From: Macrocystis pyrifera
Lineage: Eukaryota > Sar > Phaeophyceae > Laminariales > Laminariaceae
Direction of reading: 5' to 3'
NCBI GenBank assembly: GCA_031763025.1
Contig: JASSKH010000037.1
Coordinates: forward strand, 1,488,001-1,552,000
DNA: 64,000 bases
Shown here: positions 1,562 through 61,653 of the stretch, piece after piece
Layout: every line of letters starts with the position of its first letter
Numbering within the stretch: the stretch's first letter is position 1
The notes under the pieces: generated by a model
Told to the model about the DNA's origin: nothing
The model's database searches: none
Seen by the model: the letters and a program-made list of their open reading frames with translations, nothing else
Program-made: the position numbers and the translations under genes

Positions 1562-1666
1562 TACGGGGGTCCATAGTTAACGGGACCAAATTTTGTTAGT
1601 AAAAATAGGTAAATATATAGGATTTTTATGTATACCATAGGTCCTATGAACTATGGACCCCCGTAA
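1562..1666. mobile_element. MITE family 1 copy (TTACGGGGG TIR)
   Basis: Palindromic element of about 105 bp. Consensus ends are TTACGGGGGACCATAGTAAA and its complement, flanked by TA on both sides in most copies. This copy sits in a duplicated flank: the related sequence near position 30-60 lacks it, which gives an empty site. No coding capacity; presumably mobilised by a TA-targeting transposase elsewhere. Confidence 0.85.
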
Positions 1667-1721
1667 ATATACATGAGTATACCGGGGGCATATACACATG
1701 ACATACAACAATATATCGCAC

Positions 1722-1894
1722 CTCTTCGCGCTGTCGAATTCTGTCATCGGCGGCCTGCTCTGTTTCGTCTCGCTGCAATGCCACCACGTGCCAATTTTGC
1801 TCGAAGTTCCGGTCGTGCTCCCTCTTGAAGCCCGTGTCATTCTCCACGTCCGGTTGCTCCGGCACACCCGCTAGCGGATCTGGGGGGGAGTTTT
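1722..1894 (-). CDS. Candidate exon of an unrecognised minus-strand gene
   Basis: A minus-strand block of 173 bp bounded by a good acceptor (pyrimidine tract ending TCGCTCGCAG) and a donor (GAAGAG|GTGCGA). It reads as an acidic hydrophilic segment starting ENSPPDPLAGVPEQPDVEN and ending DDRIRQREE, phase 2 out. The composition is coding-like and unlike the surrounding repeats. Upstream in the same frame is a hydrophobic stretch (PLVIVLVLVLFVFLL), but that would be intron if the acceptor is used; read through, it could be a signal anchor. No partner exon was found and I do not recognise a family. Confidence 0.35.
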
Positions 1895-2187
1895 CTGCGA
1901 GCGACAGAAGAAATACAAAAAGCACCAGTACCAGCACAATAACCAGCGGCAGCAGTGTCGACAGGCGAGGCAGAAACAGGGTGACTAAATTATACGCGTA
2001 TAAATAGTAAGAATACCTGCACACGTCTGTAATCCTTTACAGCCGCAACTTGTTTTTGGTCATGAACTCCTGTAAATGGGGATTATTCGTGAGGCATGAT
2101 TTATGCTCGTACAACATATAGGCATCGCGGAACGCCCGCCACTACGTGAGGGCCTCTGGCTGCCACTGTGATAAAGAAAAGTCGCTA

Positions 2188-2290
2188 TGACGGGGGTCCA
2201 TAGTTAACAGGACCTATGGCATACATAAAACCTACATATTTCCCTATGTTTACTAGGAATATTCGGTCCTATTTACTATGGTCCACCGCT
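2188..2290. mobile_element. MITE family 1 copy
   Basis: Ends TGACGGGGGTCCATAG and CTATGGTCCACCG, internal GGACC...GGTCC palindrome. Diverged at the outer bases. Confidence 0.75.
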
Positions 2291-2439
2291 CGGGGTAAGT
2301 AAGTATGTGTCTGAGCTTTGGCTTCCCGTTTTATTTATTTACTTGGGATTCTTCTCCTTTTTCTTTTTCTTTTTCGGTTTGGTTTCTTCGTTGCTTCTCT
2401 TTCTTCATGGTGTACTTTGGTTGCTGGCGTATGTATGTA

Positions 2440-2634
2440 TGTTGTGTCGGCCGCACCTAGTGCGAAGGCATGGTATTGCGTAGGCTATTAATGCACTACG
2501 GTGTGTTATCTCTGTGTCGTAGTCTGTGACCACAGAGCTCGTATCTTTCTAGGGTGAAGACTCAGCACCGACACTGGGCTTGCTGGATGTCGACGAGTAG
2601 AAGAACGGTTGAATGTGAAGAACACACACACACC
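2440..2634 (+). repeat. Interspersed repeat E, long copy
   Basis: Contains GGTATTGCGTAGGCTATTAA, then CACAGAGCTCGTATCTTTCT, and ends in a run of CA dinucleotides after TGTGAAGAA. The same sequence recurs at 24716-24915 (minus), 50760-50905 (plus, starts later) and 5383-5500 (minus, partial). Fixed 3' end with variable 5' end suggests a retroposon with a (CA)n tail. Confidence 0.6.
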
Positions 2635-2654
2635 GTAATGATCGCAATGCAATC

Positions 2655-2943
2655 CCGTCTAGAAACACACAAGATACCCCCCCCCTCCCATGACATATTT
2701 AGCAGGGAGAAAACGATCGCTATCCTAGGAGATAGATGGTGGCCACAGGAGGCCAAACAGGAAGGGGATAAGATTAGCAAAAAGTTTCTATGTAATTTAT
2801 GGAAACAACGTAATGAGCGCCCAATTGTTGGAGGTGTCTCTATTAGGAGTAGGAACGGTGCTCCGTCTCGAAAGGGATGCGTGGTCAATGGTCAAATGAC
2901 TAAGGCAAGCAACAAATGAGTACACCCCCCCCCCCCCCCCCCT
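2655..2943 (+). repeat. Interspersed repeat A with poly-C 3' end
   Basis: Contains AACGATCGCTATCCTAGGAG and GTCAATGGTCAAATGACTAA, then runs through AAATGAGTACAC into a C tract of more than 15 bases. Relatives lie at 10216-10470 (minus), 15325-15410, 20128-20350, 33903-34000 (minus) and 34430-34525 (minus). Confidence 0.65.
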
Positions 2944-3563
2944 CCCATGACATATTCAAGACGATTTACGTATCGCTTTCCGATGATTTTCCGAGTCGGA
3001 TTTCTCCGAAACAAGGAGGGCACATTGCACACGGCACATGACACATGACACATGACGAAAAGGGTGGTTCTGGAAACATCGCGACATATTTCCTTAGACA
3101 GGCAGACGCATCTGCATCGCTCGGCGTTCGATGCAATCAGTTCATGCAATCAGCCCTCACCCCTAACCCGTAACCCTTCTCCCCGATGTCGAAAAAAACG
3201 AAAACCATTTTGGAAATCCCTCCAAGGGGCAGACGGTAAAAAAGGACGAGCTGATCATTTTTCACACGTCGGCGCATCCATGATCGAGCCTGATCTACAG
3301 CAGTACATCGTACAGACCAGTGGGTTGGGACATACATACGAGATCATGCACATCCCGCAGGTCATCACGTGGAAACGTGCACAGATCACAAAAGAAAATA
3401 CACAGGATGAATATCCTCTGAATGAGGCCATGTCAAACCCATCGGTAATAGGTACACATAGTATACGTGCATCGAAGTTTCTGAATAACAGCTGTTGTAT
3501 CAAAAGTACGGCACACAGCTTGCAAAAATGAGTTTCGACCAAATCCTCGATCTCACACCAGCT

Positions 3564-3906
3564 GTTTATTTTTTTATTTTTATTTTTATTTTTCTTCATC
3601 ATCACTTCTACTTTCCAGCCCATTCGTAGGAGGTTTTACCCTCGACGATCTTCTGGACAAGCCGTGGTCACAGGTGTCGTCCCTTCTTCCCCCCGGTACG
3701 TGCCTTTAGTTTTTATCGCGCATAGGGTTCAGCATTCCCACTGCTCGTCGATTTTCATCGAATGTAGCTAACTCACGCTCTCGCGCTTTCCGCTTATCAT
3801 TTTTTTTATGCAAGAAAAAGTCCCTACGAGCATGCACTCGGCGAGATTTAAACCCAAGAAAGTGATCTTGATAGGCACGCGGACCACCTAACAAGCCACC
3901 GGGTAC
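3564..3906 (-). mobile_element. tRNA-derived SINE, copy 1
   Basis: Minus-strand copy of a SINE of about 330 bp: tRNA-like head (A-box TGGCTTGTTAGGTGG, B-box degenerate here), body ending CTGGAAAGTAGAAGTGATGA and an A-rich tail with T interruptions. Other copies: 6055-6396, 26600-26937, 56963-57289. Confidence 0.85.
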
Positions 3907-4011
3907 CGGTAAGATACGCTTGTACCTGCTAAATATAGTGCTCGATCAGAATATATACAAGGCATAGGCTATACTGAACGAGATGTGTACCTGTCGCATA
4001 CCAGGTATATA

Positions 4012-4124
4012 TTACGGGCGACCATAGTAAATAGGACCAAACGTTGTTGGTAAAAATAGCGAAACATATAGGTTTTATATGTGTACCTTAGGTCCTACCA
4101 GGTATTTATTATTGTCCCCGGTAA
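4012..4124. mobile_element. MITE family 1 copy carrying an internal TACCAGGTA
   Basis: Standard ends TTACGGGCGACCATAG and CCCCGGTAA. At 4096-4104 the family consensus GGTCCTATTTACTATGG is interrupted: it reads GGTCCTA-CCAGGTA-TTTATTATTG. The extra seven bases turn a single TA into TACCAGGTA. Another TACCAGGTA lies just outside at 3999-4007. Confidence 0.85.
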
Positions 4125-4145
4125 TATATAGCCGTGTGAATCGTC

Positions 4146-4652: not shown

Positions 4653-5275
4653 GGACATCATCACCACCTCCACGTGGCGGAATACATTAAAAAGAACGAT
4701 CTGGTTGTGTGTGGATTCTTACTTAAATAATCATCAAATCATTTCTGTATTATACTATTAATACTCAACGTCGACAATGGATGGTTGGGTTTCGGTCTAT
4801 AAAAGACAATACGAGTGGAAAACGCAGACGGGAAAACACGAAATTACAAAAACAACCAATGAGACCGACAATCAAGACGAATTCCGAGGGTTTTCGACGC
4901 CAAGAAAGAATTATGAAACACGCAAAATGTCCAAATACAAGATACAAGATATACAGCAGCAGTATACTCGTATGAATGTGGGACGGTACCTCCCGCGCAG
5001 CAAGCTTTGTCTCTGCGATGGATGTGCTGTGTGCTGCTGGGTGTGGAGACAGACACCAAGAGAGAGGCTTGTGTGGCGTTACCACACTATATATATGATA
5101 CATACAGCTGCAGCAATGAGAGGTAATCTCAGTGCAGAGTGTTTCCGAGGAGCCAGGATGGCCTCAGTATTACCTTGAAGGATTATAGTGGTAATAAGGC
5201 GGTACGATCTAGTGGATAGGACCTGGCATCCACATTACTACCAAAATCGTATTGTTAATAGTATTACTACCTCTA

Positions 5276-5381
5276 TTACGAGGGCCTATCGTAAATAGGA
5301 CCAAATATTGTTAGAAAAAAGAGGGAAACATACGGGTTTTTGTGTTTTACCGTAGGTTATAGTTACTCTGGTCCACCGTAA
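5276..5381. mobile_element. MITE family 1 copy
   Basis: TTACGAGGGCCTATCGTAAA at one end and GGTCCACCGTAA at the other, with the AGGACCAAATATTGTTAG interior. Degenerate right arm. Confidence 0.75.
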
Positions 5382-5382
5382 T

Positions 5383-5500
5383 AGTGTGTGCGTTGTTCAC
5401 ATTAAACCGTTCTTTCTACCCGTCGACATCCAGCACAACCAGTGTCCGTGTCGAATCTTCAATCCTAGAAGAGATACAAGTTCTGTGGTCACAGCAGTAG
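5383..5500 (-). repeat. Interspersed repeat E, partial minus copy
   Basis: Shares CCGTCGACATCCAGCACAAC, the AACCGTTCTT segment and TCTGTGGTCACAG with the other copies of repeat E. Confidence 0.5.
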
Positions 5501-5986: not shown

Positions 5987-6054
5987 TGGCTACGAGTACC
6001 TGGTAAGTATTCATAGTAAATCCTGAGTACGTCTGGCGTATACTGAAAACCGGC

Positions 6055-6429: not shown

Positions 6430-7860
6430 TATGTCGTATCATACTCCTGCTGTATGTACCAAAGATGTCAGGAGACAGCGTTTTCACGCCTTGACAGACA
6501 GACAGACAGCAAATTTGCCTTGACACGCCTTGACTGACACCAAACTACTAGGTTTTGGTCTGGAACGCTCGGCCCTACACCCTTGACAGCGCACGTTTTG
6601 CCTTGCTTGACATGTATCCTGACATCTCTGGTACGTACCCTTATCAGGTATAGACGACGTCTGACGCGCGTACATCCTCCTACATGGACACCATGACCCT
6701 ACTATCAATACAGAAGGAGGTAGAAGTTCGCACGAGTACGTACGTAATAACTCTCTGCCATGCCTTGAATCCTGAAAAGAAGTACGAACTGATCGTACCT
6801 CAAAGCAGGCTTTCAAAGTGCAAGGAAAAGCAGGCTTCTGTCCGGTTCAGAGTCGAGAGCCCTGCACACTCAACAAAGGCAGCCCAAGGACAATCACATT
6901 GAATATTTCTTCGTGTACGCGAACACATACTTGGTACATCGGTATTCCGGCATGACTCGAAGAGCACACCTAGCTTGCAAGCAATCCGTGGAACGCAGTT
7001 GACGGAACCTAACACTCAATACTCAACGCTGCATCCTGCTGCTCGCTCTCGCCACCAGGAGATGGGTCTCAGAACGACTGCTGCTTTTGCTGTATGTAGT
7101 GATGGACTGCCGTTGCTCTACACATAGTGCTGGCTGGACTGCTTGCGGGACAGGTGCAAGTGTTTCTGTATTACATTCTACTGCTGTACGTGCACATTCC
7201 ATAAATGAAAAGGGATGAAGCTCGCAGGCAGCTGTACGAGAATTGCTACTCGTACTCGCACTATCCAAGCAGCCGAGTACCATCGGTAGCCAGCAAGCCT
7301 TTTCTCAACAACTGCGCTTGCGTCGGGGCGTCCCGTTCCTCCAGCAGCGCTTCAACAGACCTGACAGCTATGAAGTGTTCTACCCAAACAAGCGACAAGT
7401 TGGTAGATATACCTGGTATTCTACACGCACGATGTACACACGGAACAGAGGCCGATTATTATATTAATATTAATAGTAACACGAGAAACCCCACACCCAG
7501 GTTCTTACTGCTGCTGCTGCTGCTGTCTGAAAATCTGAAAGTTTGAAGTTTGTCTGACCTTGCAACAGCGACAGATGACCTGTGATGCGCCTCGGGTCCA
7601 GTGGATATACCGATCGATCAACAGCAAAAAAGCTATGAAAACTGTGCGAGCGAGCACGAGGCACGGCGAGAGGCGGGGCGCGAAGTCACGGACGAAGACA
7701 GGGTAGGAGAAGGCAACAGACAGCGAGGAGAGCAGTGAGTGCAGCAGCAGTACGAGGAGATGAGGAGCCAGAGATGCAGCGAGGTAGACGGAGGCGAACA
7801 CGTTTCGAGTTGCGAGCACACCTGATGGTACTAACTGACTACTGCTGTAGTAGCAGTTAC
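6430..7860. other. No supportable gene
   Basis: Only short frames without coding-like composition or paired splice signals. One TACCTGGTA occurs near 7408 and one TACTGCTGTA near 7190. Confidence 0.5.
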
Positions 7861-7861
7861 G

Positions 7862-7943
7862 AACTACCCTTCTGTCCGGAAATATAAGAAATGTTTTGAT
7901 ATGTATACGGATACTCAAAAGATCCTTACATTTACGGTCATTT
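7862..7943. mobile_element. MITE family 3 copy
   Basis: One end carries TGTCCGGAAATATAAG and the other AAGATCCTTACATTTACGGT. Related to 8679-8746, 11793-11872 and 47731-47808, whose ends read like ACTCTGACCYGAAATATAAG. Confidence 0.5.
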
Positions 7944-8678
7944 TGGTATAGGAGTCATTAATACTGTTGTGTCCGGAAATATAAAGATGGTTTAAAATTT
8001 AAATATGAAATAAAATATATTATTAGATTTTCGAACATAGTGGAAAATAGGGTGCCATATGGTGGGAAGTTGCGGCGGTTGCATTCAACTTTTTCATTTT
8101 AGTATTCCGCTGCTGTCAAACAAAACGTCGAAACAACACGGCCGCTTTTCGCAAAAACAGGTGCCGTGCACAGCACAATAGTAGTAGTAGCAGCACCGCC
8201 ACGCGTCGTGGCCTGCCTCGGGCGGTGCAAACGCAGAAAACAACCTCTCAGCCACTCAGCACGCAAAGTTGAAAACACTGACTGTCCCCACAACAGCAAA
8301 GCGGACCAGACTCACTGCCACCGACGATCGCCCAAACAGTCGTCGACAGACCAGCGTATGTCTCCGCCATCGCCGACACTGCGTCGCCACCACCAGAGGG
8401 AAGTTCCAGCTGGAGAGGCGAGCTCCTCAGTAACACTACACTGGGACGGCAGCACTAGTAGCCGTGCCAGTTGTAGTGCTGGGTGCTGGGGTGTCGGAAA
8501 GTCAAACAGCACAGCAAACTGGATGCTGTGTGAGAGCTTTTTTTACGCGGTGTGTCTTTGGGTCTGTGGTGAGATTCCGAGCCTGCTGCGGGGTGGGAGG
8601 GGGGGGAAGGGGCAAAATAGTAAAATAGTGTTCTTGTTCTTTGTTTATTGGGTTGAATCTTGAATCAAACTACCAACG

Positions 8679-8746: not shown

Positions 8747-9121
8747 TATGGGGCATGACACGGTACGCAGTTGCTATACGGAACACGTATTATTACAGTC
8801 ACGTATTTCAATTTTATTTTTATTTTTTGATACGTAAAAAAAACGACAAAATACCTGTGGTTCGTAGTACTACTGTGCAGCAAGCAGTAGTGTCGATTTG
8901 ACAAATTCTGTGAAAGATTGTTCTACGAGTATGATCCATGATGATACCAGGTATCACCGTTTTCCATCTTTGCTGCACAGTAGTGCAATGCTCAATCAAG
9001 ATCTTCGTTGCGTGGTGTCAAGTCTACGACGACGTGGAGCCTATCTATGTCATATCTGCACCCCAACCGGGTTGTTGTTGTGTCGTATGTGGTGTCATGT
9101 ACGACGTGGAGCCTATACCCG

Positions 9122-9258: not shown

Positions 9259-10177
9259 TAGAGTCTACATCAATAAATAGTACCACATCCGACACATACA
9301 TCTGAAATTACTGCACATATACTCGTACACCATATTGTCAGCGCACAAAACATTGATTTTCGAGGCTTCAAAGATTGGTTGTTTTCTTTGTGAACGGACG
9401 CAATAAAAAAAACACAAATTGTTACGAGTGGTAAAGTGTGGGAGTGCCGATCGTGTGATACTGGTGTTCTGTAGATCTAGTATCAAACATCACACACACA
9501 TGGCTTGCAAAGGTTAGTTTCGACGAAATGCTCCTTCTCACAGCTAGCTGCTGTTTTTCACTTTTATAAATACAATGCCACCGCATCATATACACAGCGG
9601 CAGCAGTATAAGCGTATATATACCAGGTACAAGTTTACCGCTGCGCGCACTTCTCCTCAGAATATATTTGATGGTTAGGACGTGTTCGCGACGCATGGTA
9701 TGATACCCTCCCATCCCCTCTGACCCCTGTGATCACATACATGGAGAAGAGTGGAATTTCTTGAAAATTCAAGCAGCAGGAGTACTCGGGGTCTTCCTAA
9801 GCCCTGCTGGGCCTTTGCAGGCCTTCCAGGGCAATGCCATGATAACACTAGCCCATCCTGATGGGCCGTTTAATAAAAAGCAGCGACAACTAACAAGGAA
9901 ACACCAGTTCCATGTTAAATAGAACATGAATCGGAGATGCGGCTCCTCAAAACCCACCCCGACACCCCCTCTACCCTGCGAGCCTACGAAGCCTCCTGAA
10001 GAAACGCTGGAGGGAAAAAATTACGGAGCCTACCCGTAAGGGACTCGGAAAACGTCAGACACTGAAACTCCTCCGCATCCCCACAGCGTGGGGGGGGGGG
10101 GGGGAAGGGGGAGCGAAAATGCACACTCTTGAAAATGAAAGAACACAAGCCACCCTCACATCCATCCCAAGCGACAG

Positions 10178-11298: not shown

Positions 11299-11412
11299 CA
11301 CACCAGTATTACACTAGGGTGATAATATAGCACACCCGTATTACACTAGGGTGATACATAACACACCCGTATTACACTAGGGTGTTAAGATAGCGCACCC
11401 GTATTACACTAT
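11299..11412. repeat. 31-32-bp tandem repeat, about four units
   Basis: Units contain CACCCGTATTACACTAGGGTG, itself a small hairpin. The last unit is split by the MITE at 11412-11515 and resumes at 11516. Confidence 0.8.
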
Positions 11413-11515
11413 TACGGGGACCATAGTAAATAGGACCAAATTTTGGTAGAAAAAATAGGTGAGTATATAGTTTTTTGTGTGTACCATAGGTCCTATTAAC
11501 TATGGACCGCCGTAA
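11412..11515. mobile_element. MITE family 1 copy inside a tandem unit
   Basis: TTACGGGGACCATAGTAAA and TATGGACCGCCGTAA ends. The preceding tandem units read ACACTAGGGTG; here the unit is interrupted after ACACTA and resumes with GGGGTG, giving an internal empty-site control and placing the insertion at TA. Confidence 0.85.
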
Positions 11516-11526
11516 TGGGGTGATAA

Positions 11527-11705: not shown

Positions 11706-11792
11706 CCCCACCGTGAGGGTCGCGAGTTTTGGCTCAAAAAATTATGACCGGTTGAGCTCCTCAAGTGAACAACTTACTGTTAGTATCACTCT

Positions 11793-11872
11793 GACCTGAA
11801 ATATAAGGATCGTTAGAGTGTAATTATTCAATCCCAAAGGTCCTTATATTTTGGGTCAGAGTGGCATGCCGG
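11793..11872. mobile_element. MITE family 3 copy
   Basis: Ends CACTCTGACCTGAAATATAA and AGGTCCTTATATTTTGGGTC with AGAGTG outside; about 80 bp. Confidence 0.75.
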
Positions 11873-12779: not shown

Positions 12780-12884
12780 TTACGGGGGACCATAGTAAAT
12801 AGGACCTACGGTACACACAAACACCCATATATTTCCATATTTTTACCAACAATATTTGGTCCTATTTACTATGGCCCCCCGTAA
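12780..12884. mobile_element. MITE family 1 copy
   Basis: Ends TTACGGGGGACCATAGTAAA and TATGGCCCCCCGTAA, flanked by TA on both sides. Confidence 0.9.
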
Positions 12885-49779: not shown

Positions 49780-52700
49780 CGGCGGAGAAACTGAAGCAGA
49801 AACAACGTATGCAACTTGTTTGACAAGTTCCGGCCCCAACCACCGCACGCTAAGCTAACTGCATGCAGGTGCAGGTGACGGTGCGGGTTAGGGCTAAGGT
49901 TGATAAGCGGCGTCCATTCAGGTTGGGGGCGGGTCGGTAAAAGTGCCACTCAGAACAAAAAAAAAAACAAAAAAAGAAAGAAACAAAAACTGACTGTTGT
50001 GATACGTACCTGGTGTCGAGACTATTAATAGTGCGATAACACGAAGCGCCGACATACCTCAAAGGTATTCAGCAATTATATAATATCGATTATCATGGGA
50101 CGATGGGCTGCATATGGGGCATCGAACGACAATAGTACATTATCCACAAGCCTGCTTGCTCGTTTGTTTGCTTGCTCCGCTTGCTTGCTATGTGACATAC
50201 CACCAACCACCGCATGTTTTCGATAAAGAATAACACACGGAAGCCGGGATTGTGCAGCTTTCAGTGGTTTGGAGGAACGAGGAGGTGCAGAAATAGGGCA
50301 GGCCGAAAAAAACAGAGAGGTACTCGTAGGGCGATCCAATCGTAGGCGAAGACCGATAGATGACTACCCTGTAGATGATGCAAGGACAGCGGTGGCAAGT
50401 AGAGAGAAGGAAACGTCAAGGCATGATGTGCGTTTCGCGTGTCTCATGGCATGGCATGTCGAAATAATTTATAATTTTACCCCGTCGGCAATTAACAGCT
50501 GAGGATGTCCTCAGAGGCGAGACTGAATTGCCGAGGGTGTGCTCCCAAGCAGGCGAGATATCTGTAAGATTGCTCATGTTCATGTTTTAGTATACGAATA
50601 TATACATGAAAAAAAAAAAATGTATACACGGTATGTACTTCGTTCACCCCGAGGGGAAATGAGAGCTGAGGAGGTTCCCAGAGGCGAGGGAACTGCCGAG
50701 GGCGTGCTACCAAGTAGGCGGGATGTTTGTAAGATTGCTCATGTTCATGTTTTAGTATATATTAATGCATTACGGTGTGTTATCTCTGTCGTAGTCTGTG
50801 ACCACAGAGCTCGTATCTTTCTAGGGTGAAATACCAGCACGGACACTGGGCTTGCTGGATGTCGACGAGTAGAAGAACGGTTTGATGTGAAGAACACACA
50901 CACATACGAATATATACGTGAAAAAAAATAATATGTATACGGTATATACTTCACCTCGAGGGGGAATGAGAGCTGAGGAGGTTCTCGAGGCGAGAGAATT
51001 ACAGAGGGTATGCTACCAAGTAGGCGAGATATCTGTATGATTGTTCATGTCATGTTTTAGTACACGTATATATACCAATCGCAGTACACATTCGACATCA
51101 TTGCATGCACATAACGGTATTTGTTTCACCAGTTAATTTGTGGTTTTTTTCGCCCCTCCCCTGAGGCGGACATTTGCCCGAGTATAACCCGTTCCCGGGA
51201 CTTCTGAGAGTTCTGTACAACATCCATATACCCGTACCCGGAACTTCCATGCGCTCTGTACGACATTCATACCCATACCCGAAATCTCCGTAAGTTCCGT
51301 ACGCCCGTGTCACATTACCTGCGGAACGAGTACAACATTCGTATACCACACCCGGAACTTCGGTGAGTTCTGTAAGATTTACATACCTGTACCCGGCAGT
51401 TATGTGAGTTTTACGACGTTCATACAACTTTTGTCAAGTCTGTACGCCCGTGGCACAAAAAAACGGGGTATGGGTATGCGCTTGTAAAGTATCCGGGTTC
51501 GGGTTCGGGTACGGGTACGGGTACAACATTCGTGTACAGTACTGGTACCTACCTGGAACTTCTGTGAGTTTTTTCCGTAAGGGTCGTTATTTACTGGATT
51601 TTTTTGTTTCTCGTTTCGCGGAAAATTCACGGAAGCGCGAAAAAAAAAGCGGTGGGTCCTACAGTATTATCGCCTGGCATCATGTTTCATGAGGTTGCAA
51701 CGCTCGTCCATGTGATCGAATCGTCAAAAACAGCGGCGCGCGCGCAGGCCGTCCGCTTGATCGTGCCACTAGAGGTGCCGCGACTCCTGTTAATACTACT
51801 ATTAATACTACTATTAATACAGAGGCGACCCTACCTCGCCGTACCTCGCGAGCGTAGCTTACATCAACTTTGGGCGCGGCAAAGCCCTCCGCGACATGAA
51901 AAAAGCTGGCGATTTCGTGCTGACCTCGGCTATGTGGGTGAGACTACGCCTCTGTCGACTGGATGGATAGAACTCTTGTTGTGCACGGCGCTTTCTGCGT
52001 CCAGCCACGGCCTGGGAATGACCCTGGGGATGACCCTGATCCATCCTGTACAGTGCCGAGTGGCGACAAGGCGCACACGGCTCACGCCGTTCGCCTGCCT
52101 AATGTTCTGCGACGATGCGGGACTTTTCCGCGATACGGGAAATCCATTTTTTCGCTATTTTGCCGGGGCTGAAAAACATCCGTGAAACTCGAAAAAAAAA
52201 ATGTGAACCAGGATTTTTCCTCGAAACGCGAAAAAAAAACGTCCGGTTAAGACCTATATGCCAATGGAAACGCAAAGGTTCTATTAAAAAAATGAATTCC
52301 GAAGACACTCGCCGGAATTTTTCAGGTACAGCTTGCTACGAATGAGCGCGATTTTAAAACCGAAAGTTCGAAACTTTTGGAAAAACCCGAAAAAAGCAAT
52401 TCTGGGGCCGATGTTGGGCCAAGATCGGCTTCAGAAAAACTCAGGCGGATCTTTAGTTCGAAGCCGCGAGATTCCGAGTCCAGACATCGATCGACAAAAA
52501 CCAAAGACTGCGTCATGAATTCTGAACGAAGTGCGCTCGCTAGGGGCTCCGGCCCACCCTAGGGTCCCCCTGTTCACACAATGGCCGGTAACATGTGGCG
52601 GGCGCTGGCCAGGCGTATAATGAAGAAACAGATTGGCCGCAGGTGAGCGCAAAATAGATGACAAAATTTCTCGATCTGTGCCTCGAATGACAAAAAACAG

Positions 52701-56336: not shown

Positions 56337-57962
56337 ATCGCTTTCATGTGCAAATGAGAGGCCATCTCTCCTGCACAAGCACCGTTGGCAGTAGGTGCAA
56401 CTCGCTGTAGATAGGTTGGTATGATACCTCGGCGTGGGTACGGGGTACTACTTGGCAACTGGGCAGATAAAGGGGAGCAGTACTATGGTCCTCAAAATGC
56501 AAGTAATCTCAGTTCTGAGAAATGTGATAAACCTGTCAGATCTGAGCTGACTTCTGCCCCCTCCAGGACAAAGATCAATAGTATCGATGGTTTCCTGCCC
56601 CATAATAGTACGGTAGACGGTTCTGATTTTTCGGCTTCAGAGATCGCTGAAAAAAAAACGAAAAAAAGTCGCAAAAAAAAAATCCTGAAAGTCGAGTAAA
56701 AGTTGGTCAATAGTAATGCGAGTGAGACAAAGCTGAGAACTGAAAACTCGGCATATTGCCTTTTTCCTGCATCACCTGGCATTGATCTGATCAGATCATG
56801 TTCGTACTATTTTATAAATTTTGAAATACGTCAGCTGTGAGTTCGACTGATTAAATAGTTGATACTCAACTTTTCAAGCTGCGTAATACGCCTCGTGTAT
56901 ATTCCATTTTTACCTAATTTTACAATTATTGTGATAAACCGAGCGCGCGTATTCACTAAATGTCCCCGGTGGCTTGGTAGGTGGTCCGCGAGCCTATCAA
57001 GATCATTTTCGTGAGTTCGAGTCTCACCAAGTGCATGCTCGTAGGGACTTTTTCTTGCATAAAATTGATTAGCGGAAAGCGCGAGAGCGTGAGTTAGCTG
57101 TACGTTCGATGAAAATCGACGAGCAGTGGGAATGCTGAACCCTATGCGCGATAAAAACTAAAGGCACGTGCCGGGGGGGAGAAGGGACGACACCTGTGAC
57201 CACGGCTTGTCCAGAAGATCGTCGAGGGTAAAACCTCCTACGAGTGGGCTGGAAAGTAAAAGTGATGATTAAAAAAATAAAAATAAAAATAAATGTGATT
57301 CCTTGTCAAAGATATAGGCCAGCGGCTCCCCTGGATGCTGCCCGGGTCTTGGAAATTAAAAAAAAGGCTCGCACGCTTTTTGCGCGCTTCGCGCGCCTCA
57401 TTATTAATATAACATACAGCAAGTGGCTGGTGGTTTATGAGTGATTCACGCTATGCTCAGCAGACTGCCCGTACCATGAGACCGTACGACCGTGCACACG
57501 CTCACAATTGTTCATACACTTGGTAAATACCACTACACTCTTCTACTACTACTGCTGTAGAATGGTACCAGGTACGTCCCTATGTCCCTATGAAGTCGCT
57601 CCTCCTTCAACCAGAGGGTGGAGGAAGTGGAGGTCACTTGTGAGGTTATGAACGCTGAGCACATCACCTACCTGTTGCTGGGATCGGCATATTCCAGCAA
57701 GGCACGCCTTCAATGCCTCTAGACTCCCCGCTTTGTTCGCCCTCTGCACGTGCAGCTCGCCTTTGGCTCGGTCGCATCCATCGTCTGATTCAATTCCATC
57801 GTCCCTTCCGGTACCACGAGTACCGTGACTATCTAAACATGTTACATCTTTCGGTCGTGTCTCGAGCAAGATACCAACACGCTGTAGAAGCACGCTCATC
57901 TCTATATCACGGTCATCCAATCGCCGCAAAAGATTTTTCGGGCTGTGTTCAACCTCTCTCAT
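43213..57962 (-). CDS. VPS9-domain Rab guanine-nucleotide exchange factor (six exons)
   Basis: Six minus-strand exons (57672-57962, 48868-49304, 47356-47460, 45414-45576, 44444-44736, 43213-43333) join in phase to 1410 bp, about 469 aa. VPS9-domain proteins (yeast Vps9, Rabex-5, plant VPS9a) activate Rab5-class GTPases on early endosomes by nucleotide exchange. What shows it: a helical-bundle segment TYRVFLDRLM...FVRAIRLFLFSI, then FFLAMQNAMGIHPSWAEL, RFVMTKIHPLAFG, LQFLTADDLNV, the core ADDFLPVLIYVVLRANVPRL, and PGYCFVALRSAVEFL. This is the family order. All five introns have GT-AG ends and compatible phases. Introns are long and full of repeats; intron 1 is about 8.4 kb. The N-terminal exon is the least certain, since an acceptor-like CTTTCAG lies right before its ATG. 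No zinc finger, CUE or UBA domain is visible. Confidence 0.88.
43344..43373. repeat. (CAG)10 next to a splice acceptor
   Basis: Ten CAG on plus, so (CTG)10 on the gene strand, ending about 10 bases before the exon 6 acceptor where the pyrimidine tract would be. Confidence 0.95.
44258..44332. mobile_element. MITE family 2 copy in VPS9 intron 5
   Basis: TGCAGTCCCGTTTGGGGGAC, ACTACTTGAAATTTGACTG, then AAAGGGGACTGCAG. It serves as an uninterrupted reference for the copy at 40186-40255. Confidence 0.7.
44444..44736 (-). CDS. VPS9 gene exon 5 (catalytic core)
   Basis: Acceptor CCTCGCAG, donor TCGAG|GTGGGT. Encodes EELRKMGGGRCPGDIVSRVV, then ADDFLPVLIYVVLRANVPRL with conserved Asp393 and Pro397 (the D-x3-P pair of the family), and CEYVQAFHSPVALMS. 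Phase 0 in, phase 2 out. A proline/aspartate loop (WRADLDPAGT) precedes the core. Confidence 0.92.
44826..44873. repeat. G48 homopolymer in VPS9 intron 4
   Basis: 48 uninterrupted G on plus (C on the gene strand), ending 90 bases upstream of the exon 5 acceptor; G-rich sequence continues on its left. Confidence 0.95.
45414..45576 (-). CDS. VPS9 gene exon 4
   Basis: Acceptor TATGTACCAG, donor GCGCAG|GTATGA. Encodes FVMTKIHPLAFGGKLDGAAD, then SARLRALQFLTADDLNV and VLGLAQ, the standard entry segment of the VPS9 domain. Phase 2 in, phase 0 out. Confidence 0.92.
45590..46015. repeat. AGAGAGCAGTAGCA-type minisatellite in VPS9 intron 3
   Basis: Degenerate units such as ACAGTAAAGAGAGCAGTAGC. Two neighbouring units differ by a seven-base insertion: GTAGCATACAGTAGAGGGAG at 45721-45740 against GTAGCATACCTGGTACAGTA at 45743-45762. 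Confidence 0.8.
46033..46136. mobile_element. MITE family 1 copy in VPS9 intron 3
   Basis: TTTCGGGGGACCATAGTAAA and TATGGTCCCCCGTAA ends, next to repeat D. Confidence 0.9.
46143..46322 (+). repeat. Repeat D in VPS9 intron 3
   Basis: GCCGTTTTCTCGGCAGCGAA, GCCGAGCGACGCGTCTATAG, CGACGAGATATTCCAAAGCC. Confidence 0.6.
46874..47195. repeat. 26-bp minisatellite, about 12 units
   Basis: Units of the form ACTCGGGTATGACTCCTTGC plus ATTGTA. Three units equal 26 codons, so the minus strand shows an open repetitive frame (PELQCKESYPSYNARSHTRV). It lies in VPS9 intron 3, 160 bp downstream of exon 3, and I regard it as noncoding. Confidence 0.92.
47356..47460 (-). CDS. VPS9 gene exon 3
   Basis: Acceptor CGCATCATAG, donor GGAAAG|GTGAGG. 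Encodes CAEFFLAMQNAMGIHPSWAE, then DSIVACREHLE, which continues into RFVMTK of exon 4. It matches the family segment that precedes the VPS9 core. Phase 2 in and out, 105 bp. Confidence 0.9.
47731..47808. mobile_element. MITE family 3 copy in VPS9 intron 2
   Basis: ACTCTGTCCTATTCCATAAG and ACGGTTCTTATATTTCGGGA with CAAAGTAGTA outside. Confidence 0.7.
48371..48569 (+). CDS. Candidate plus-strand exon inside VPS9 intron 2
   Basis: Acceptor-like GCGCGCACAG and donor CCAAGG|GTATGT bound a frame reading LLAEQGLHPKRVAHKMYRTL, then SVVEAGNFLSFHHDCRLFVA and HGFVDEVVQ. Coding-like, but the minus strand is also open here and no partner exon was found. Could be a transposon piece. Confidence 0.25.
48799..48840. 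repeat. (GA)n microsatellite
   Basis: About 21 GA units, 27 bases downstream of the exon 2 donor on the gene strand; interrupted GA units extend to about 48710. Confidence 0.95.
48868..49304 (-). CDS. VPS9 gene exon 2
   Basis: Acceptor GCTGCTTCAG, donor GAAAG|GTGAGA. Encodes AEAILAQAIAPSLTASPLDA, a low-complexity Ser/Gly/Pro linker, TYRVFLDRLMRSESKGFVRA with IRLFLFSILG (the helix that precedes VPS9 domains), an Ala/Arg-rich stretch, and VDVCGSTFLVE. Phase 0 in, phase 2 out, 437 bp. Confidence 0.88.
49712..49777. repeat. (CAG)22 in VPS9 intron 1
   Basis: 22 perfect CAG on plus. Open in all frames but flanked by noncoding sequence. Confidence 0.97.
50498..51075 (+). repeat. Three tandem units of about 165 bp, the second split by repeat E
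   Basis: Units share GCTGAGGAGGTTCCCAGAGG, CAAGTAGGCGGGATGTTTGT, TTGCTCATGTTCATGTTTTA and an AATATATACRTGAAAAAA stretch. Unit 1 reads TTTTAGTATACGAATATATA without interruption; unit 2 has repeat E between TTTTAGTATA and TACGAATATA. Confidence 0.85.
50760..50905 (+). mobile_element. Repeat E, 5'-truncated insertion with known empty site
   Basis: Starts TTAATGCATTACGGTGTGTT and ends GTGAAGAACACACACACA. Exact borders follow from comparison with the uninterrupted tandem unit. It begins inside the longer copies at 2440 and 24716, so it is 5'-truncated. Confidence 0.75.
51175..51450. repeat. Degenerate 43-45-bp minisatellite
   Basis: Units contain CCCGTACCCGGAACTTC, GAGTTCTGTACAACATTCAT. Open in one minus frame, judged noncoding. 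Confidence 0.7.
51823..51937 (+). CDS. Candidate exon A of a gene nested in VPS9 intron 1
   Basis: Acceptor TATTAATACAG, donor ATGTGG|GTGAGA. Reads GDPTSPYLASVAYINFGRGK, then RDMKKAGDFVLTSAMW, phase 2 in, phase 0 out. Strongly coding-like composition and good splice ends. It joins in phase to candidate exon B. No family recognised. Confidence 0.38.
52563..52642 (+). CDS. Candidate exon B of the nested gene
   Basis: Acceptor CCACCCTAG, donor CCGCAG|GTGAGC. Reads GPPVHTMAGNMWRALARRIM then KKQIGR, phase 0 in, phase 2 out, so it fits exon A. Two ATG codons in frame could also make it a first exon. A possible next acceptor is GACCGTAG near 52741. Family not recognised. Confidence 0.36.
53818..53847. 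repeat. (CTG)10
   Basis: Ten perfect CTG in VPS9 intron 1. Confidence 0.97.
54769..54947 (+). repeat. Interspersed repeat R, intact copy
   Basis: GAAATACGTCAGCTGTGAGT, GATTAAATAGTTGATACTCA and GTGATAAACCGAGCGCGCG also occur at 56809-56960, then AGGCCAGCGGCTCCCCTGGA again at 57315. This copy is uninterrupted and gives the empty site for the SINE at 56963. Confidence 0.85.
54948..55030 (+). tRNA. tRNA-like segment (pol III type), probably a SINE head
   Basis: CAGCG at the start pairs with CGCTG at the end; a perfect T-arm (CCGAG-GTTCGATT-CTCGG) contains a canonical B-box. Total 83 nt. The D-arm and anticodon arm cannot be folded convincingly. The first part recurs at 57315-57355, so it is repeat-linked and probably not a working tRNA. 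Confidence 0.35.
56221..56335. repeat. Compound CTG/CAG tract
   Basis: CTG runs at each side of a short CAG run, able to form a hairpin; open in several frames, no coding support. Confidence 0.85.
56809..57355 (+). repeat. Interspersed repeat R, copy split by a SINE
   Basis: Same sequence as 54769-54981 with the SINE at 56963-57289 inserted; resumes at TGTGATTCCTTGTCAAAGAT. Confidence 0.85.
56963..57289 (+). mobile_element. tRNA-derived SINE, copy 4, with target duplication
   Basis: Head CCCCGGTGGCTTGGTAGGTG, B-box GAGTTCGAGTCTC, body and AAAAAT-type tail. Target duplication TAAATG at 56957-56962 and 57290-57295. The empty site is visible in the sister repeat near 54914-54931. Confidence 0.92.
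57672..57962 (-). CDS. VPS9 gene exon 1 (N-terminal)
   Basis: From ATG (MREVEHSPKNLLRRLDDRDI) through LLQRVGILLETRPKD, an acidic linker (GIESDDGCDRAKGE) and SLEALKACLAGICRSQQQ to the donor CAACAG|GTAGGT; exactly 97 codons, phase 0. It reads smoothly into exon 2 (CRSQQQ-AEAILAQAIAP, one helix). The 8.4-kb intron between them could hide further exons. The ATG follows an acceptor-like CGCTTTCAG, so an upstream exon is possible. Confidence 0.7.
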
Positions 57963-58278: not shown

Positions 58279-59024
58279 GTGAATACGTGAATACGTACAA
58301 TATCAAACGTAAAACAGTACGTAAACGATCGAGGCATGCAAAACTTTCGGCCCAAAAGGTGCGTCTCAAGCACGGTATCACACAGCCCAACATGCCAGAG
58401 TGGAGCATGGAGCTTCGCTGTATGTGACACACGCCCACGCATTGTGTTTCAGCTATCTGTGCTTTGCATCTATTGACGCATGTGTATCTACATCGTCTTA
58501 CATACCGGTATTGGACTACTATTAATATTAATAGTAAGTCAAATGATGATGTGCTCACACTATTAATATTAGTATCATACGTCCCACTTCCCTGAAATCC
58601 TGCCTGTGGTCACCCAAACAACAGGCTGATAGCTCTCAGTATGCATCGCGCGGTGCGAGAGGTTTGCACTTGAAAGCTCCGTACCGGTTCTGTACTGGTA
58701 CGTACTGAACTGAACTACCAGAGGTGGTACATAGACCTGAGGGCATTGTATTACGGCCGTATGTTGGACCACTTCCAACGCTTCTAAAGCGTGCACCTTC
58801 GTCGCCTACCGTGACCCACCCGCAACCAGGCCAGTGGGGAGACGACAACACCCGCGCTCTGCTGTGGAGACTGCTGCTGGGCGTGATACCCAGGACCGCA
58901 CCCCCTTCCGAATGGGGGCGAGAAATGTCAAGGAAGCGGGACGAGTACCGGAGTCTCAAGGCCGAGCACAGGGTGGACATATCGAAGGTGCGGGCAGTGG
59001 AGGGGAACGCTGAATTGCGCGCGG
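58168..59024 (+). CDS. TBC-domain Rab GTPase-activating protein (TBC1D13-like), 5' part
   Basis: Three plus exons (58168-58278, 58722-58758, 58830-59024) join in phase to about 114 aa. TBC proteins speed GTP hydrolysis by Rab GTPases through an Arg and a Gln finger. Seen here: KALLTSLRLLFE, then IDLRALYYG, then TRALLWRLLLGVIPRTAPPS with EWGREMSRKRDEYRSLKAEH. This follows TBC1D13 (short N-terminus, then a 'LR-LCF-G...LRALCWKILLNYLP...W...KKRELY' stretch). The IxxDxxR and YxQ catalytic motifs would lie in later exons, which I cannot find before the window ends; a foldback element and a Helitron lie downstream. Either the introns are long or the gene is truncated. Confidence 0.7.
58722..58758 (+). 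CDS. TBC gene exon 2 (37-bp micro-exon)
   Basis: Acceptor GAACTACCAG, donor GGCC|GTATGT. Reads RWYIDLRALYYG, the segment just before the TBC domain. Very short, but both phases fit and the downstream intron is only 71 bp with a good acceptor. Confidence 0.55.
58830..59024 (+). CDS. TBC gene exon 3 (start of TBC domain)
   Basis: Acceptor CCGCAACCAG; encodes QWGDDNTRALLWRLLLGVIP then EWGREMSRKRDEYRSLKAEH and VDISKVRAVEGNAELRA, donor GCGG|GTATGC (phase 1). An alternative donor ATCGAAG|GTGCGG lies earlier. RALLWRLLLG is the first TBC motif. Confidence 0.78.
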
Positions 59025-59098: not shown

Positions 59099-59757
59099 AC
59101 TCTTATGGGACCAGAAAACTGAAAACAGAACAGGATTTCCCCTTTGTGGTGTTGAAACCCACGCAGCCGATGGGAGATATTGTTTGGTATGCCGCAGCAG
59201 GAAAAAGCCGCGCTTTCAATACACAACACCTATTAATACCACCGCCGATGATCCCTCGCCTCACAGGTCACGAGATGACGCCAAACCTTCGAGGCTATAC
59301 TGATCTGAGAGTGCTCGGTACCACGTTTGAGGGTCGTTGATGCTGTGTGGCCGGAGTTCTCGCTCGAGACGTAAGAGCCTGGCCCATTTCTGGCCCGTTT
59401 TTTTATGGACAAAACTGGGTGCCATTTCTGTCTGGAAAAAAAACGGCCAGAAATGGGTCAGGCTCCGATGTCTTGAGCGAGAACTCCTGCCACACAGCTT
59501 TAACGACCCTCAAACTTAGTAGCGAGCACTCTCAGAGCAGTGGGGCATACCGCCTCGAAGGTCTGACGTCATCTCGTGCCCTGTGAGGCCAGGAATCGGC
59601 GGCGGCGGCGGCGGCGGGCGCTGTGTGTTGAAAACACAGGTTTTCATGTTTGGGCAGTGATCGCAAATGGCTCATGTCTACCGACGGCACTACCCTGGGG
59701 TTTCTACGCGATGGAGGGAGAATCCTGTTTTGTTTTTTAGTTTCTGGTCCCAAAAGT
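59099..59757. mobile_element. Foldback element of about 660 bp downstream of TBC exon 3
   Basis: Inverted arms of about 300 bp: left CTTATGGGACCAGAAA, GAACAGGATTTCCCC, CCTCACAGGTCACGAGATGA, GCCTGGCCCATTTCTGGCC; the right arm has the complements in reverse order. The left arm carries TATTAATA at 59231-59238 where the right arm has a GCC run. Short frames here are palindrome shadows. Confidence 0.85.
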
Positions 59758-60137
59758 TTGCCCTAGAAGGGTTAAGGTTGTTCACTAGTAGCAATCTTCC
59801 CGTGCTGGACAAAACGAACGCTGAAAAACGATCGACCTCATCCGTGTAGTGTCGACTCAACACCTTAAGGTCATCTCCATCTGACATCGACATCAGAGTC
59901 CGAACAGAGATTAATTACATTACCGGTCAGAGCGGCACATATAGTACTGTTACCTGGTAGATCATAATCAGTACCTGGTACGATACATCGTGTATCTGTG
60001 GTACATTTGTGGATATTGTTTTAATTTTTTTGATCAAATCTTTCCGAAAACACCTTATTCGGTTCTTGTTCGGTATCGGCAAACTCCCTTCCCGTTCGGG
60101 AAAATATCGCGCGCTGAGAAACGATAGCATCCCTCTT

Positions 60138-60235
60138 TAACCCTTTTATGAATAGTACCGCAGTCCCGTTTTGGGGACAAAGCACTTGGAATTAGAATGG
60201 TTTGTCCCGAAATCGGGACTGCAGTTCTAAAAGGG
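60138..60235. mobile_element. MITE family 2 copy, best-preserved
   Basis: TTAACCCTTTTA left end, GCAGTCCCGTTTTGGGGACA, GGTTTGTCCCGAAATCGGGA and CTGCAGTTCTAAAAGGG right end. The left arm carries an extra TA-flanked piece (TATGAATAGTA at 60147-60157) that the right arm lacks. Confidence 0.8.
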
Positions 60236-60280
60236 TGGAGGTAATAGTCTGAGGGCAATAATTTTGCTGTTTTTTTTTTG

Positions 60281-60427
60281 TCACCTCAAGTCTTCGACCG
60301 TGTCAACACTAAAAATGTTGTCGTGATGTTCTGGTCCGGACTCGATCCAGGTGGTGGACACGACAGACCCGATGTCAGCGAATCCGCTGTTTTCGGGGTC
60401 AGGGTCTGGCGACGACCCATGGAGCCA
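60281..60427 (-). CDS. Candidate terminal exon of an unrecognised minus-strand gene
   Basis: From acceptor-like CTCGTAAAAG to TGA, 49 codons: WLHGSSPDPDPENSGFADIG, then STTWIESGPEHHDNIFSVDT and VEDLR. Acidic, coding-like and unlike the repeats around it; an in-frame TAA just upstream means it must be an exon start. The rest of the gene would lie to the right. Family not recognised. Confidence 0.35.
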   Translation of the reverse strand, partial: WLHGSSPDPDPENSGFADIGSVVSTTWIESGPEHHDNIFSVDTVEDLR

Positions 60428-60518
60428 CTTTTACGAGGTGTGTGCTGCGGTATCGCTCCGAGAGTATTCACCATCGCAATAATTAGTATTGATAAGAGTA
60501 TTCACCAGGTCGTATCTG

Positions 60519-60534
60519 TTATGGTCCCCCGTAA
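60519..60534. mobile_element. Solo end of MITE family 1
   Basis: GTTATGGTCCCCCGTAA followed by TA, without a left arm. Confidence 0.6.
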
Positions 60535-60904
60535 TAGCATAGAGTATTACAGGGTATTATATGACAGTGCTTACCCTGGTGTGCAGAACAGCAGTAGTGC
60601 GTGCCAGGTACCTGATACTACGAGTTCGTGGCATGCGTAATCATTACTATGTATACCTCGTACGTAGCTCATTCTAAGTTTTGTGTACCTAGCATGGTCT
60701 TCTCCCGTCAGCTATCAGCAGCACATGGACATCACCAAGGCGCAGTTTTAGCAACACACTACTCTCTTGTCACCAAGTCGCCTCCACGGCTGGTGCAGCG
60801 ACAGGGGGCACGTGCGCGCCGGCATACCCTCCGCTCCAACGTGTCCACCCAAACGTGTATATTCGCCTCCCCCATGTATGTATGCTTTGTGCAGAGAAAA
60901 CCTT

Positions 60905-61360
60905 TACTCCGCACGAGGGGGATGATCGTATCACGTAGTGTGTATATGGCGAGGTACCCACGAGGCAGTTACATAGTAAACCCATTGCTGTCTCTGGAAG
61001 TGGCCATACAAGAAGTTAAGTCAATTAACTGATGCTGTCATACGTATGCAAGAAAATCCGCCTCTAAAGCGGTTCTTAGTAGGATGCAGCTCACCCCTCA
61101 TGCGACTCGCCCAACACCTCACGGCGCTTCGCGCTTGGTGCAAGCAATGTCTGCCTGGTCGGTGAAAACCCGACGCGCTCCATCCCGGCATTGTAGGGAT
61201 GCGAGGGTCTATGGTCATAAGACTACGGCCATGCATGATAATGAGTACACCCCCCACCCCTGGTCGGTGAAAGCCCGACGTGCTCCGTCCCGGCATTGAA
61301 GGGATGCGAGAGTCTATGGCCATATGACTACGGCCATGTACGATAATGAGTACCCCCCCC
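60905..61360 (+). repeat. Repeat B copy 2 with a tandem second 3' unit
   Basis: Same order as 19236-19625 up to GATAATGAGTACACCCCCC, then a second unit from GGTCGGTGAAAGCCCGACGT to another AATGAGTACCCCC end. TACGGCCATGCATGAT here is the uninterrupted form of the scar-bearing 19569 site. Confidence 0.75.
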
Positions 61361-61547
61361 CCCCAATCTATGCCTACCCACATGCTATGAGTACGTAGAA
61401 CTGTCCTGGGGTAATAGCTCAGTACATAGCCCAGTGGACACGAAATACTGCGTAGTAGCGACCTCACCTATCTCACGTGTCGTCGCCGGTCGGACCCGAA
61501 TCTGCACGTGGAAGTCACAACGGGTTTCCAATCTATTCCTTTAACTA

Positions 61548-61653
61548 TCACGGGGGACCATAGTAAATAGGACCAAATATTGATACTTAATAATCGGTAA
61601 ATATATAGACGTTTGTGTGTCCCATAGGTCCTATTTACTATAGTCCCCCGTAA
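61548..61653. mobile_element. MITE family 1 copy
   Basis: TCACGGGGGACCATAGTAAA and TATAGTCCCCCGTAA; right flank TA. Confidence 0.85.

Follow-up and report, generated by a model that had tools for sequence, protein, structure and literature searches.

Short TA-bounded palindromes in the Macrocystis pyrifera genome as probable excision scars of Tc1/mariner-like MITEs

The stretch of the Macrocystis pyrifera genome analyzed here (contig JASSKH010000037.1, positions 1,488,001 to 1,552,000; 64,000 nucleotides, hereafter the window) includes seven open reading frames (ORFs) with no Pfam match, two families of miniature inverted-repeat transposable elements (MITEs), and many short motifs that begin and end with TA. 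The motifs fall into three classes: TATTAATA; TACCWGGTA (W, A or T), with the forms TACCAGGTA and TACCTGGTA; and TACAGCAGTA/TACTGCTGTA. The original prediction read the short palindromes as excision scars of TA-targeting transposons. On the basis of the window, a 260.8-kb sample from elsewhere in the genome and the whole genome (537,376,219 bases), we uphold that view for two of the classes and propose that TATTAATA and TACCWGGTA were, very probably, left by the excision of non-autonomous Tc1/mariner-like MITEs that target TA (families 1 and 2). L-numbered coordinates, such as L008:608, denote stretches of the same genome outside the window. Among 120 hits listed for a reverse transcriptase from the sample, the three with names all belong to Ectocarpus, in keeping with a brown alga; genome size and composition would suit a kelp.

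All three classes are far more common than chance would give. Under a first-order Markov model the window holds 26 copies of TATTAATA against 0.93 expected, 22 of TACCAGGTA (0.24), 11 of TACCTGGTA (0.22), five of TACAGCAGTA (0.06) and seven of TACTGCTGTA (0.05); a second-order model expects 0.56 for the 26 copies of TATTAATA, 0.79 for the 33 of TACCWGGTA (both W forms) and 0.26 for the 12 of the TACAGCAGTA class. The 260.8-kb sample contains 48 (1.84 expected), 49 (2.0) and 23 (0.66) copies, respectively, motif densities being 2-3 times higher in the window. With the reversed word as control for each motif, the whole genome carries TATTAATA at 94,130 sites (control 7,522, about 12-fold) and TACCWGGTA at 121,279 (control 2,421, about 50-fold). 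The central W had been anticipated as the outcome of a mismatch resolved to A or T, and the center of TACCNGGTA is A or T in all 33 window copies and in 82 of the 92 copies in window and sample together. When every word of 1-9 bases between two TAs was tallied in window and sample, microsatellite words and family-1 internal words also surfaced, and a milder excess was seen for TACWGTA (113 against 47.8 expected) and TACGTA (172 against 88.7). Two motifs share a terminal TA more often than expected (CCWGG-CCWGG, 5 against 0.38; TTAA-TTAA, 4 against 0.31; window and sample), as renewed targeting of scar TAs would produce. On contig C1, TACCWGGTA sites recur as regular pairs about 400 bases apart.

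Family 1 was described at the outset as MITEs seated between TAs, and its copies indeed read TA-TTACGGGGG...CCCCCGTAA-TA, with about 105 bp between the TAs and terminal inverted repeats (TIRs) of up to 27 bp. A profile recovers 33 full-length copies in window and sample, 12 of them in the window, and the end word TATTACGGGGG has 33,213 + 33,392 exact matches genome-wide (66,605; control 107 + 105). When the flanks of 42 MITE copies were joined and alignments were sought across the junction, six spanning alignments were obtained. Two show a clear single TA (L009:6742 and window 11410), one lacks the element with TA changed to CA (L017:7239), one lacks it with three bases of noise at the junction (window 39337), and two are not clearly readable. 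Two other superfamilies fit poorly. PIF/Harbinger (Tourist) elements have a three-base target-site duplication, TTA/TWA, that is direct on both sides; family 1 has TTA on the left and TAA on the right, inverted, with TA outside, and we reject membership. piggyBac targets TTAA and excises seamlessly, and is likewise rejected, since the readable empty sites hold TA or a changed TA rather than TTAA, and TTAA appears as a gain.

The original prediction also called for a TA-flanked element beginning with CCA. Such an element surfaced while we were seeking it, in a scan for TA-initial words with diverse left flanks: the family-2 MITE, about 80 bp long, reads TA-CCACTCTGTCC...GGACAGAGTGG-TA (in a fuller reading of its ends, TA-CCACTCTGTCCCGAAATATAAGGA...TCCTTATATTTCGGGACAGAGTGG-TA) and has TIRs of up to 20 bp. 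Nine full-length copies were found by profile in window and sample, of which L010:6605 is a weak match (E 0.005); the exact ends TACCACTCTGTCC number 823 + 865 genome-wide (control 6 + 5), and TA is retained at 16 of 26 ends as a target-site duplication. Elements with CAG or CTG ends had been named alongside it; for these no parent was found, L017:3148-4484 (CTGT ends) being a candidate. Both families combine TIRs with short length, and short footprints composed of terminal bases and bounded by TA on either side are present, the TTAA form being assigned its putative partner by flank preference.

The most direct view of the proposed scars comes from family-1 copies themselves, which we used as many near-identical target sites, looking for any short insert followed by TA. 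The site GGTCC-TA-TTTACTATGG, uninterrupted in several family-1 copies, has 143 + 139 matches (282) to the pattern TA-N{2,8}-TA, with none in the control. Among 100 matches listed, CCWGG is the commonest short insert (45: CCAGG 31, CCTGG 14), and 11 others are pure trimmings of CCA/TGG (CCGG 4, CTGG 4, CCAG 1, CCATGG 1, CC 1). Apart from copies of local sequence, taken up below, the remaining 26 include CCAGGG 2, CCGGG 2, CCCTGG, TCTGG, CCCG, CCGCG, CCAGAGG, CGAG 2 and CWG 3. This spread of trimmed products around one main product points to end joining of CCA overhangs rather than to copying of a fixed motif. Four scarred copies were read in context: a family-1 copy surrounds the scar in L029, L030 and L031, that in L029 carrying two TACCAGGTA, and in L028 the left family-1 end is not recognizable. 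Longer inserts were sought with a gap of N{68,98}, which returned mostly family-1 sequence itself; family 1 follows GGTCC directly in four of the 27 matches listed, and none of the 27, as listed with letters cut, begins with family-2 ends.

A second family-1 site, TTTAC-TA-TGGTCC, has 396 + 395 matches (791) with short inserts and none in the control. The 100 matches listed comprise TG 28, CAG 9, CTG 8, CCWGG 8, CG 6, TTAA 5, TTAC 5, TTTAC 4, CCAG 2, TT 2, CA 2, TTAG 2, CGAG 1 and 18 words once each. At the same site 16 copies hold a TTAC...GTAA insert with TA on both sides where uninterrupted copies have one TA (match 121-123 bases; control 0), and its identification as family 1 rests on ends and length. 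These 16 filled copies, together with the TTAA inserts among the matches listed, place filled and TTAA-scarred states at one TA that is plain in uninterrupted copies. The origin of TATTAATA by family-1 excision, as first proposed, thus gains support from this site and from the outside flanks that motif and element share.

Bases outside the TA played no part in defining any motif. The three bases before family-1 ends are T-A-C at 51, 49 and 59 percent (39 half-sites), and before TATTAATA they are T-A-C at 56, 58 and 49 percent (147 half-sites). TACCWGGTA has no T-A-C preference and a purine next to the TA in 80 percent of 164 half-sites, as do family-2 ends in 13 of 16. After exclusion of nested and repetitive sites, flanks were scored by matrix against random TA. 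The family-1 matrix gave z 8.7 for TATTAATA flanks and z -2.6 for those of TACCWGGTA, fitting TATTAATA best among six scar classes scored; that of family 2, derived from no more than 16 ends, gave z 3.3 for TACCWGGTA and z 0.0 for TATTAATA. By its flanks TATTAATA therefore appears fairly well tied to family 1, and TACCWGGTA only loosely to family 2.

Paralogous copies add individual cases. Where TACCWGGTA stands at L007:7257, at window 45749 and at window 4096, the last of these within a family-1 MITE, a paralog has a single TA. The same holds for TATTAATA at window 39452, with one base of noise, and at 14393, where two further bases differ; at L015:2643 the paralog of TATTAATA reads TG. Of 58 alignments spanning a motif, 14 show it on both sides; plain divergence accounts for many of the remaining 44.

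Could these motifs have been there before the transposons, as preferred insertion targets? One family-2 MITE, at 47728, does sit on the TA of a TACCTGGTA. We nevertheless reject this reading as extremely improbable: the palindrome is present at none of the four usable family-1 empty sites, a single TA stands in paralogs that lack the motif, and TACCWGGTA outnumbers recognizable family-2 copies by 82 to 9 in window and sample. An origin in replication slippage or microsatellite growth around TA would suit some inserts at the two family-1 sites, which are local duplications (TT, TTTAC, TG), and (CAG)n is abundant, so that TACAGCAGTA may partly arise in this way. Control trinucleotide pairs, however, are rarely flanked by TA on both sides (0-3 of 212-276 each), and where CCWGG is gained it is no copy of its flanks; the insert differs from them at both sites, on which ground we reject slippage as its source and regard this origin as very unlikely overall. 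A functional role for these words, for instance as protein-binding sites that were selected and spread and resemble element ends by chance, agrees with their being palindromic and common. It fits badly with gains at a TA inside MITE copies alongside trimmed CCGG, CTGG, CCAG and CCATGG, and with the difference in flank preference between the two motifs, one of which comes close to family 1 in this respect, and we hold it to be most improbable.

The alternative that deserves more weight keeps the scars and changes their authors: other, now extinct TA elements with tips TT... and CC... could have left them in place of families 1 and 2. Scars exceed recognizable family-2 copies by roughly 9 to 1, and the family-2 flank match draws on 16 ends and is shared by other motifs; on the other side, the flank preference of family 1 suits TATTAATA better than any other class scored, and the trimmed variants fit CCA/TGG. 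We judge this unlikely, though far from negligible.

A number of observations weigh against excision scars of families 1 and 2 as we propose them. A repeated unit on contig C1 seems to carry two TACCWGGTA scars and to copy them; any scar within a repeat is copied along with it, so that site counts are not event counts. The flank matches are not exclusive, the matrix of family 1 also scoring above random on TACWGTA (z 4.4) and TACAGCAGTA (z 3.7), and that of family 2 on TACGAGTA (3.7), TACGTA (6.5) and TACAGCAGTA (2.0), and T-A at -3/-2 also precedes the AT-rich control palindrome TAATATTA, which has T, not C, at -1. At GGTCC-TA-TTTACTATGG, 18 of the 100 inserts listed are local-sequence copies (including TT 10 and TTTAC 5) and TTAA is not among the 100; at TTTAC-TA-TGGTCC the TG inserts are probably slippage. 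The presence of family 2 at a TA that is scarred elsewhere is not shown beyond chance: GGTCCTACCACTCTG has 9 matches against 1 in the control, but a rough estimate from end numbers alone already expects a few. Paralog indels of 3-14 bp under strict filters include 29 of TA type among 263, with CCWGG 2, CG 4 and TTAA 0, a list too small for ranking insert types. Inspection by eye of the ORFs of a 1.9-kb CGAG-ended element in L008, described below, recognized no transposase. Finally, a one-base A-A overlap, as invoked below for family 2, would hardly anneal, and loss of a single overhang base explains CCWGG equally well.

Weighing these points, we still favor excision of families 1 and 2, and from the motifs, the elements, the gains at TA, the trimmed variants and the flank preferences we infer a cut position, an annealing register and a transposase as follows. 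In Sleeping Beauty and mariner elements the transposase makes its cuts three bases within the element, and the resulting 3-base 3' overhangs are turned into footprints by host end joining (PMC7827188). Here, too, a transposase would cut three bases inside each element end, so that the flanking TAs would carry 3-base 3' overhangs, and the host would join these at the best-pairing register, resolving mismatches to either strand. For the TTA ends of family 1, an overlap of two paired bases (TA/TA) would give TA-TTAA-TA; for the CCA ends of family 2, an overlap of one A-A mismatch, or the loss of one overhang base, would give TA-CC(A/T)GG-TA. Blunt two-base joining fits less well and is set aside, as it predicts TACCGGTA, which is rarer (19 against 82, window and sample). 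Whether a single end-joining rule, the best-pairing register of 3-base overhangs with mismatches included, writes the scars of any TA transposon seems to us evenly balanced. If it does, living elements are fewer than their scars, which together amount to a genome-wide archive: the ends, target preferences and excision numbers of transposons, living or extinct, could be read from it without a second genome.

Other TA-bounded motifs may extend the same scheme. Full overlap of CAG ends with a central A-A would yield CWG, and CGA ends could pair over two bases, through tandem G-A mismatches, giving CGAG or CTCG; a tandem G-A pair is stable in the context C-GA-G. TACGAGTA/TACTCGTA is enriched (22 against 3.2 in the window; 63 against 11.3 in window and sample) and possibly represents the scar of a third family of TA elements, ending in CGA (CGAGCTGG), a fit rather than a prediction, worked out after the enriched motif and two CGAG-ended pairs had been seen. 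TA-flanked elements with the TIR CGAGCTGG lie at L008:2260-4200 (1.9 kb) and L013:3902-4612 (0.7 kb); TACGAGC(T/C)GG marks seven ends in L005, L008, L013, L017 and L022, with two matched pairs, and TACGAGCTGGNCC has 478 + 471 exact genome matches (949; control 17 + 9); the 100 places listed include six plus/minus pairs at a spacing of 671-699 bases. TACWGTA accounts for 17 of the 100 inserts listed at the TAC/TA site of family-1 MITEs, as a Sleeping Beauty-like CAG-ended element would leave.

TACAGCAGTA had been said to fall outside the rule, and we agree; no parent element was found. Self-pairing of a CAGCA(G) overhang of 5 or 6 bases, through two A-A mismatches, would yield CAGCAG or CTGCTG but fits poorly: it should produce mixed forms as well, and window and sample hold 35 CAGCAG/CTGCTG, no CAGCTG and three CTGCAG. 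Isolated CAGCAG has TA on both sides in 35 of 448 copies (14.9 expected from its own flanks), against 0-3 of 212-276 copies for each of six control trinucleotide pairs, and the flank preference of TACAGCAGTA resembles that of TACWGTA (r 0.86, 66 half-sites). At 22910-23130 a stretch bounded on either side by CCAGGTACTACA resembles a TIR element, but the sample contains no second copy of it, and two scars facing each other are the better reading.

Table 1. MITEs and TA-bounded motifs in the window ("scar" is our proposed reading of a motif occurrence; strand is given as ".")
Feature	Position	Strand	Basis
Family-1 MITE, TTACGGGGG TIR, decayed ends	1562..1666	.	profile match
Family-1 MITE with internal TACCAGGTA scar at 4096..4104; paralog L008:608 has single TA	4010..4126	.	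paralog comparison
Family-1 MITE	5274..5383	.	
Family-1 MITE; local paralog 11297-11368 is empty site, single TA	11410..11516	.	flank alignment
Family-1 MITE, TA-TTACGGGGG...CCCCCGTAA-TA	12778..12886	.	
Family-1 MITE	25025..25133	.	
Family-1 MITE	27422..27526	.	profile match
Family-1 MITE	34914..35024	.	
Family-1 MITE; inverted paralog 40547-40359 without element, 3 noise bases at junction	39337..39445	.	flank alignment
Family-1 MITE, internal deletion	41978..42062	.	
Family-1 MITE	46031..46138	.	
Family-1 MITE	61546..61655	.	
Family-2 MITE, diverged	7868..7945	.	nhmmer E 9e-11
Family-2 MITE (CCACTCTGTCC-type TIR); left end reads TCA, one flank without TA	11786..11864	.	
Family-2 MITE, TA-CCACTCTGTCC..., inserted at terminal TA of TACCTGGTA scar 47719..47727	47728..47808	.	
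TATTAATA scar	4756..4763	.	motif occurrence
Two TATTAATA scars, common TA	7462..7475	.	motif occurrence
TATTAATA scar	14014..14021	.	motif occurrence
TATTAATA scar; paralogs L004, L014 single TA, 2 further bases differ	14393..14400	.	paralog alignment
TATTAATA + TACCAGGTA, common TA	22904..22918	.	motif occurrence
TATTAATA scar	23185..23192	.	motif occurrence
TATTAATA scar	28113..28120	.	motif occurrence
TATTAATA scar	32295..32302	.	motif occurrence
Two TATTAATA scars, common TA	38190..38203	.	motif occurrence
TATTAATA scar	38243..38250	.	motif occurrence
TATTAATA scar	38548..38555	.	motif occurrence
TATTAATA scar; inverted paralog near 40360-40547 single TA, one noise base	39452..39459	.	alignment
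TATTAATA scar	40222..40229	.	motif occurrence
TATTAATA scar	40502..40509	.	motif occurrence
TATTAATA scar	45938..45945	.	motif occurrence
TATTAATA scar	47895..47902	.	motif occurrence
TATTAATA scar	50023..50030	.	motif occurrence
TATTAATA scar	51800..51807	.	motif occurrence
TATTAATA scar	51812..51819	.	motif occurrence
TATTAATA scar	57402..57409	.	motif occurrence
Two TATTAATA scars, common TA	58520..58533	.	motif occurrence
TATTAATA scar	58561..58568	.	motif occurrence
TATTAATA scar	59231..59238	.	motif occurrence
TACCAGGTA scar	1186..1194	.	motif occurrence
TACCAGGTA scar adjoining family-1 MITE	3999..4007	.	motif occurrence
TACCTGGTA scar; TA common with TACGAGTA 5991-5998	5997..6005	.	motif occurrence
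TACCTGGTA scar	7410..7418	.	motif occurrence
TACCAGGTA scar	8945..8953	.	motif occurrence
TACCAGGTA scar	9621..9629	.	motif occurrence
TACCAGGTA scar	21828..21836	.	motif occurrence
TACCAGGTA scar	22781..22789	.	motif occurrence
TACCTGGTA scar	23122..23130	.	motif occurrence
TACTGCTGTA + TACCTGGTA, common TA	26050..26066	.	motif occurrence
TACCAGGTA scar	27319..27327	.	motif occurrence
TACCTGGTA scar	32014..32022	.	motif occurrence
TACCAGGTA scar	32345..32353	.	motif occurrence
TACCAGGTA scar	35415..35423	.	motif occurrence
Two TACCAGGTA scars, common TA	37607..37622	.	motif occurrence
TACCTGGTA scar	37716..37724	.	motif occurrence
TACCAGGTA scar	38320..38328	.	motif occurrence
TACCTGGTA scar	38520..38528	.	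motif occurrence
TACCAGGTA scar	40160..40168	.	motif occurrence
TACCAGGTA scar	42371..42379	.	motif occurrence
TACCAGGTA scar	45112..45120	.	motif occurrence
TACCTGGTA scar; paralog 45613-45742 single TA	45749..45757	.	paralog alignment
TACCAGGTA scar	46494..46502	.	motif occurrence
TACCTGGTA scar, right TA holds family-2 MITE 47728..47808	47719..47727	.	motif occurrence
Two TACCAGGTA scars, common TA	47813..47828	.	motif occurrence
TACCAGGTA scar	57566..57574	.	motif occurrence
TACCTGGTA scar	59951..59959	.	motif occurrence
TACCTGGTA scar	59972..59980	.	motif occurrence
TACCAGGTA scar	61800..61808	.	motif occurrence
TACGAGTA/TACTCGTA	22 window places, e.g. 5991-5998, 8924-8931, 31102-31109	.	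motif scan
TACAGCAGTA, unexplained class; gain at TA vs paralog 61108-61260, nearby noise	19570..19579	.	paralog alignment

The window also holds a small, hairpin-like repeat family of about 65 bp, CAGTCCCGTTTTGGGGACAAA...GTCCC..ACGGGACTG, without clear TA flanks (5915-5989, 60161-60235 and 44264-44338), a tandem array with a 26-bp period (46854-47217), a 300-bp duplicate of 98 percent identity 51 kb apart (6055-6354 and 56962-57261), and G or C runs of more than 30 bases (about 10182-10215, 36948-36987 and 44828-44873). Outside it, TTTGCGACACC occurs in many dispersed copies in L001, L015 and L023, partly as TA-flanked inverted pairs.

Observations of Tc1/mariner footprints usually concern small numbers, from assays or single genes. 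Scar words at the scale described here make excision surveyable, allow scar classes to be linked to elements by target preference, and open the end-joining habits of a brown-algal lineage to study from sequence alone; they also warn that common palindromic genome words need not be regulatory motifs. The footprint of Sleeping Beauty, of the Tc1 group, is TAC(A/T)GTA. Like it, the motifs described here are TA-flanked and, as we read them, made of terminal element bases, with one mismatch resolved to A or T; unlike it, they would arise by an overlap of one or two bases rather than three, giving TACCWGGTA and TATTAATA. Footprints of Stowaway and of Tc1/mariner elements have been described before, as extracts of PMC1925063 and PMC7913693 indicate, and a survey of titles and opening lines of abstracts in the open-licence literature found no genome-wide scar census. 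Excision scars are thus a known phenomenon, and what seems new here is their scale and the shared joining rule. In Ectocarpus, Mariner-Tc1 elements reach almost 12,000 copies and are mostly non-autonomous, and the whole words footprint and excision, in the singular, do not occur in the main text of that study (PMC12477816); the present families likewise appear to be brown-algal, non-autonomous Mariner-Tc1 elements. A further parallel is with the Stowaway MITEs of Triticeae, which, according to PMC1925063, are TA-flanked, leave empty sites that keep short TIR pieces between TAs, can insert beside an older footprint, and have left five footprint types at one gene intron. The families described here share with them the TA flanks, the probable TIR remnants between TAs and insertion adjoining what we read as an older scar; where the Triticeae case concerns one intron, each motif in Macrocystis pyrifera marks some 10^5 sites in a single genome.

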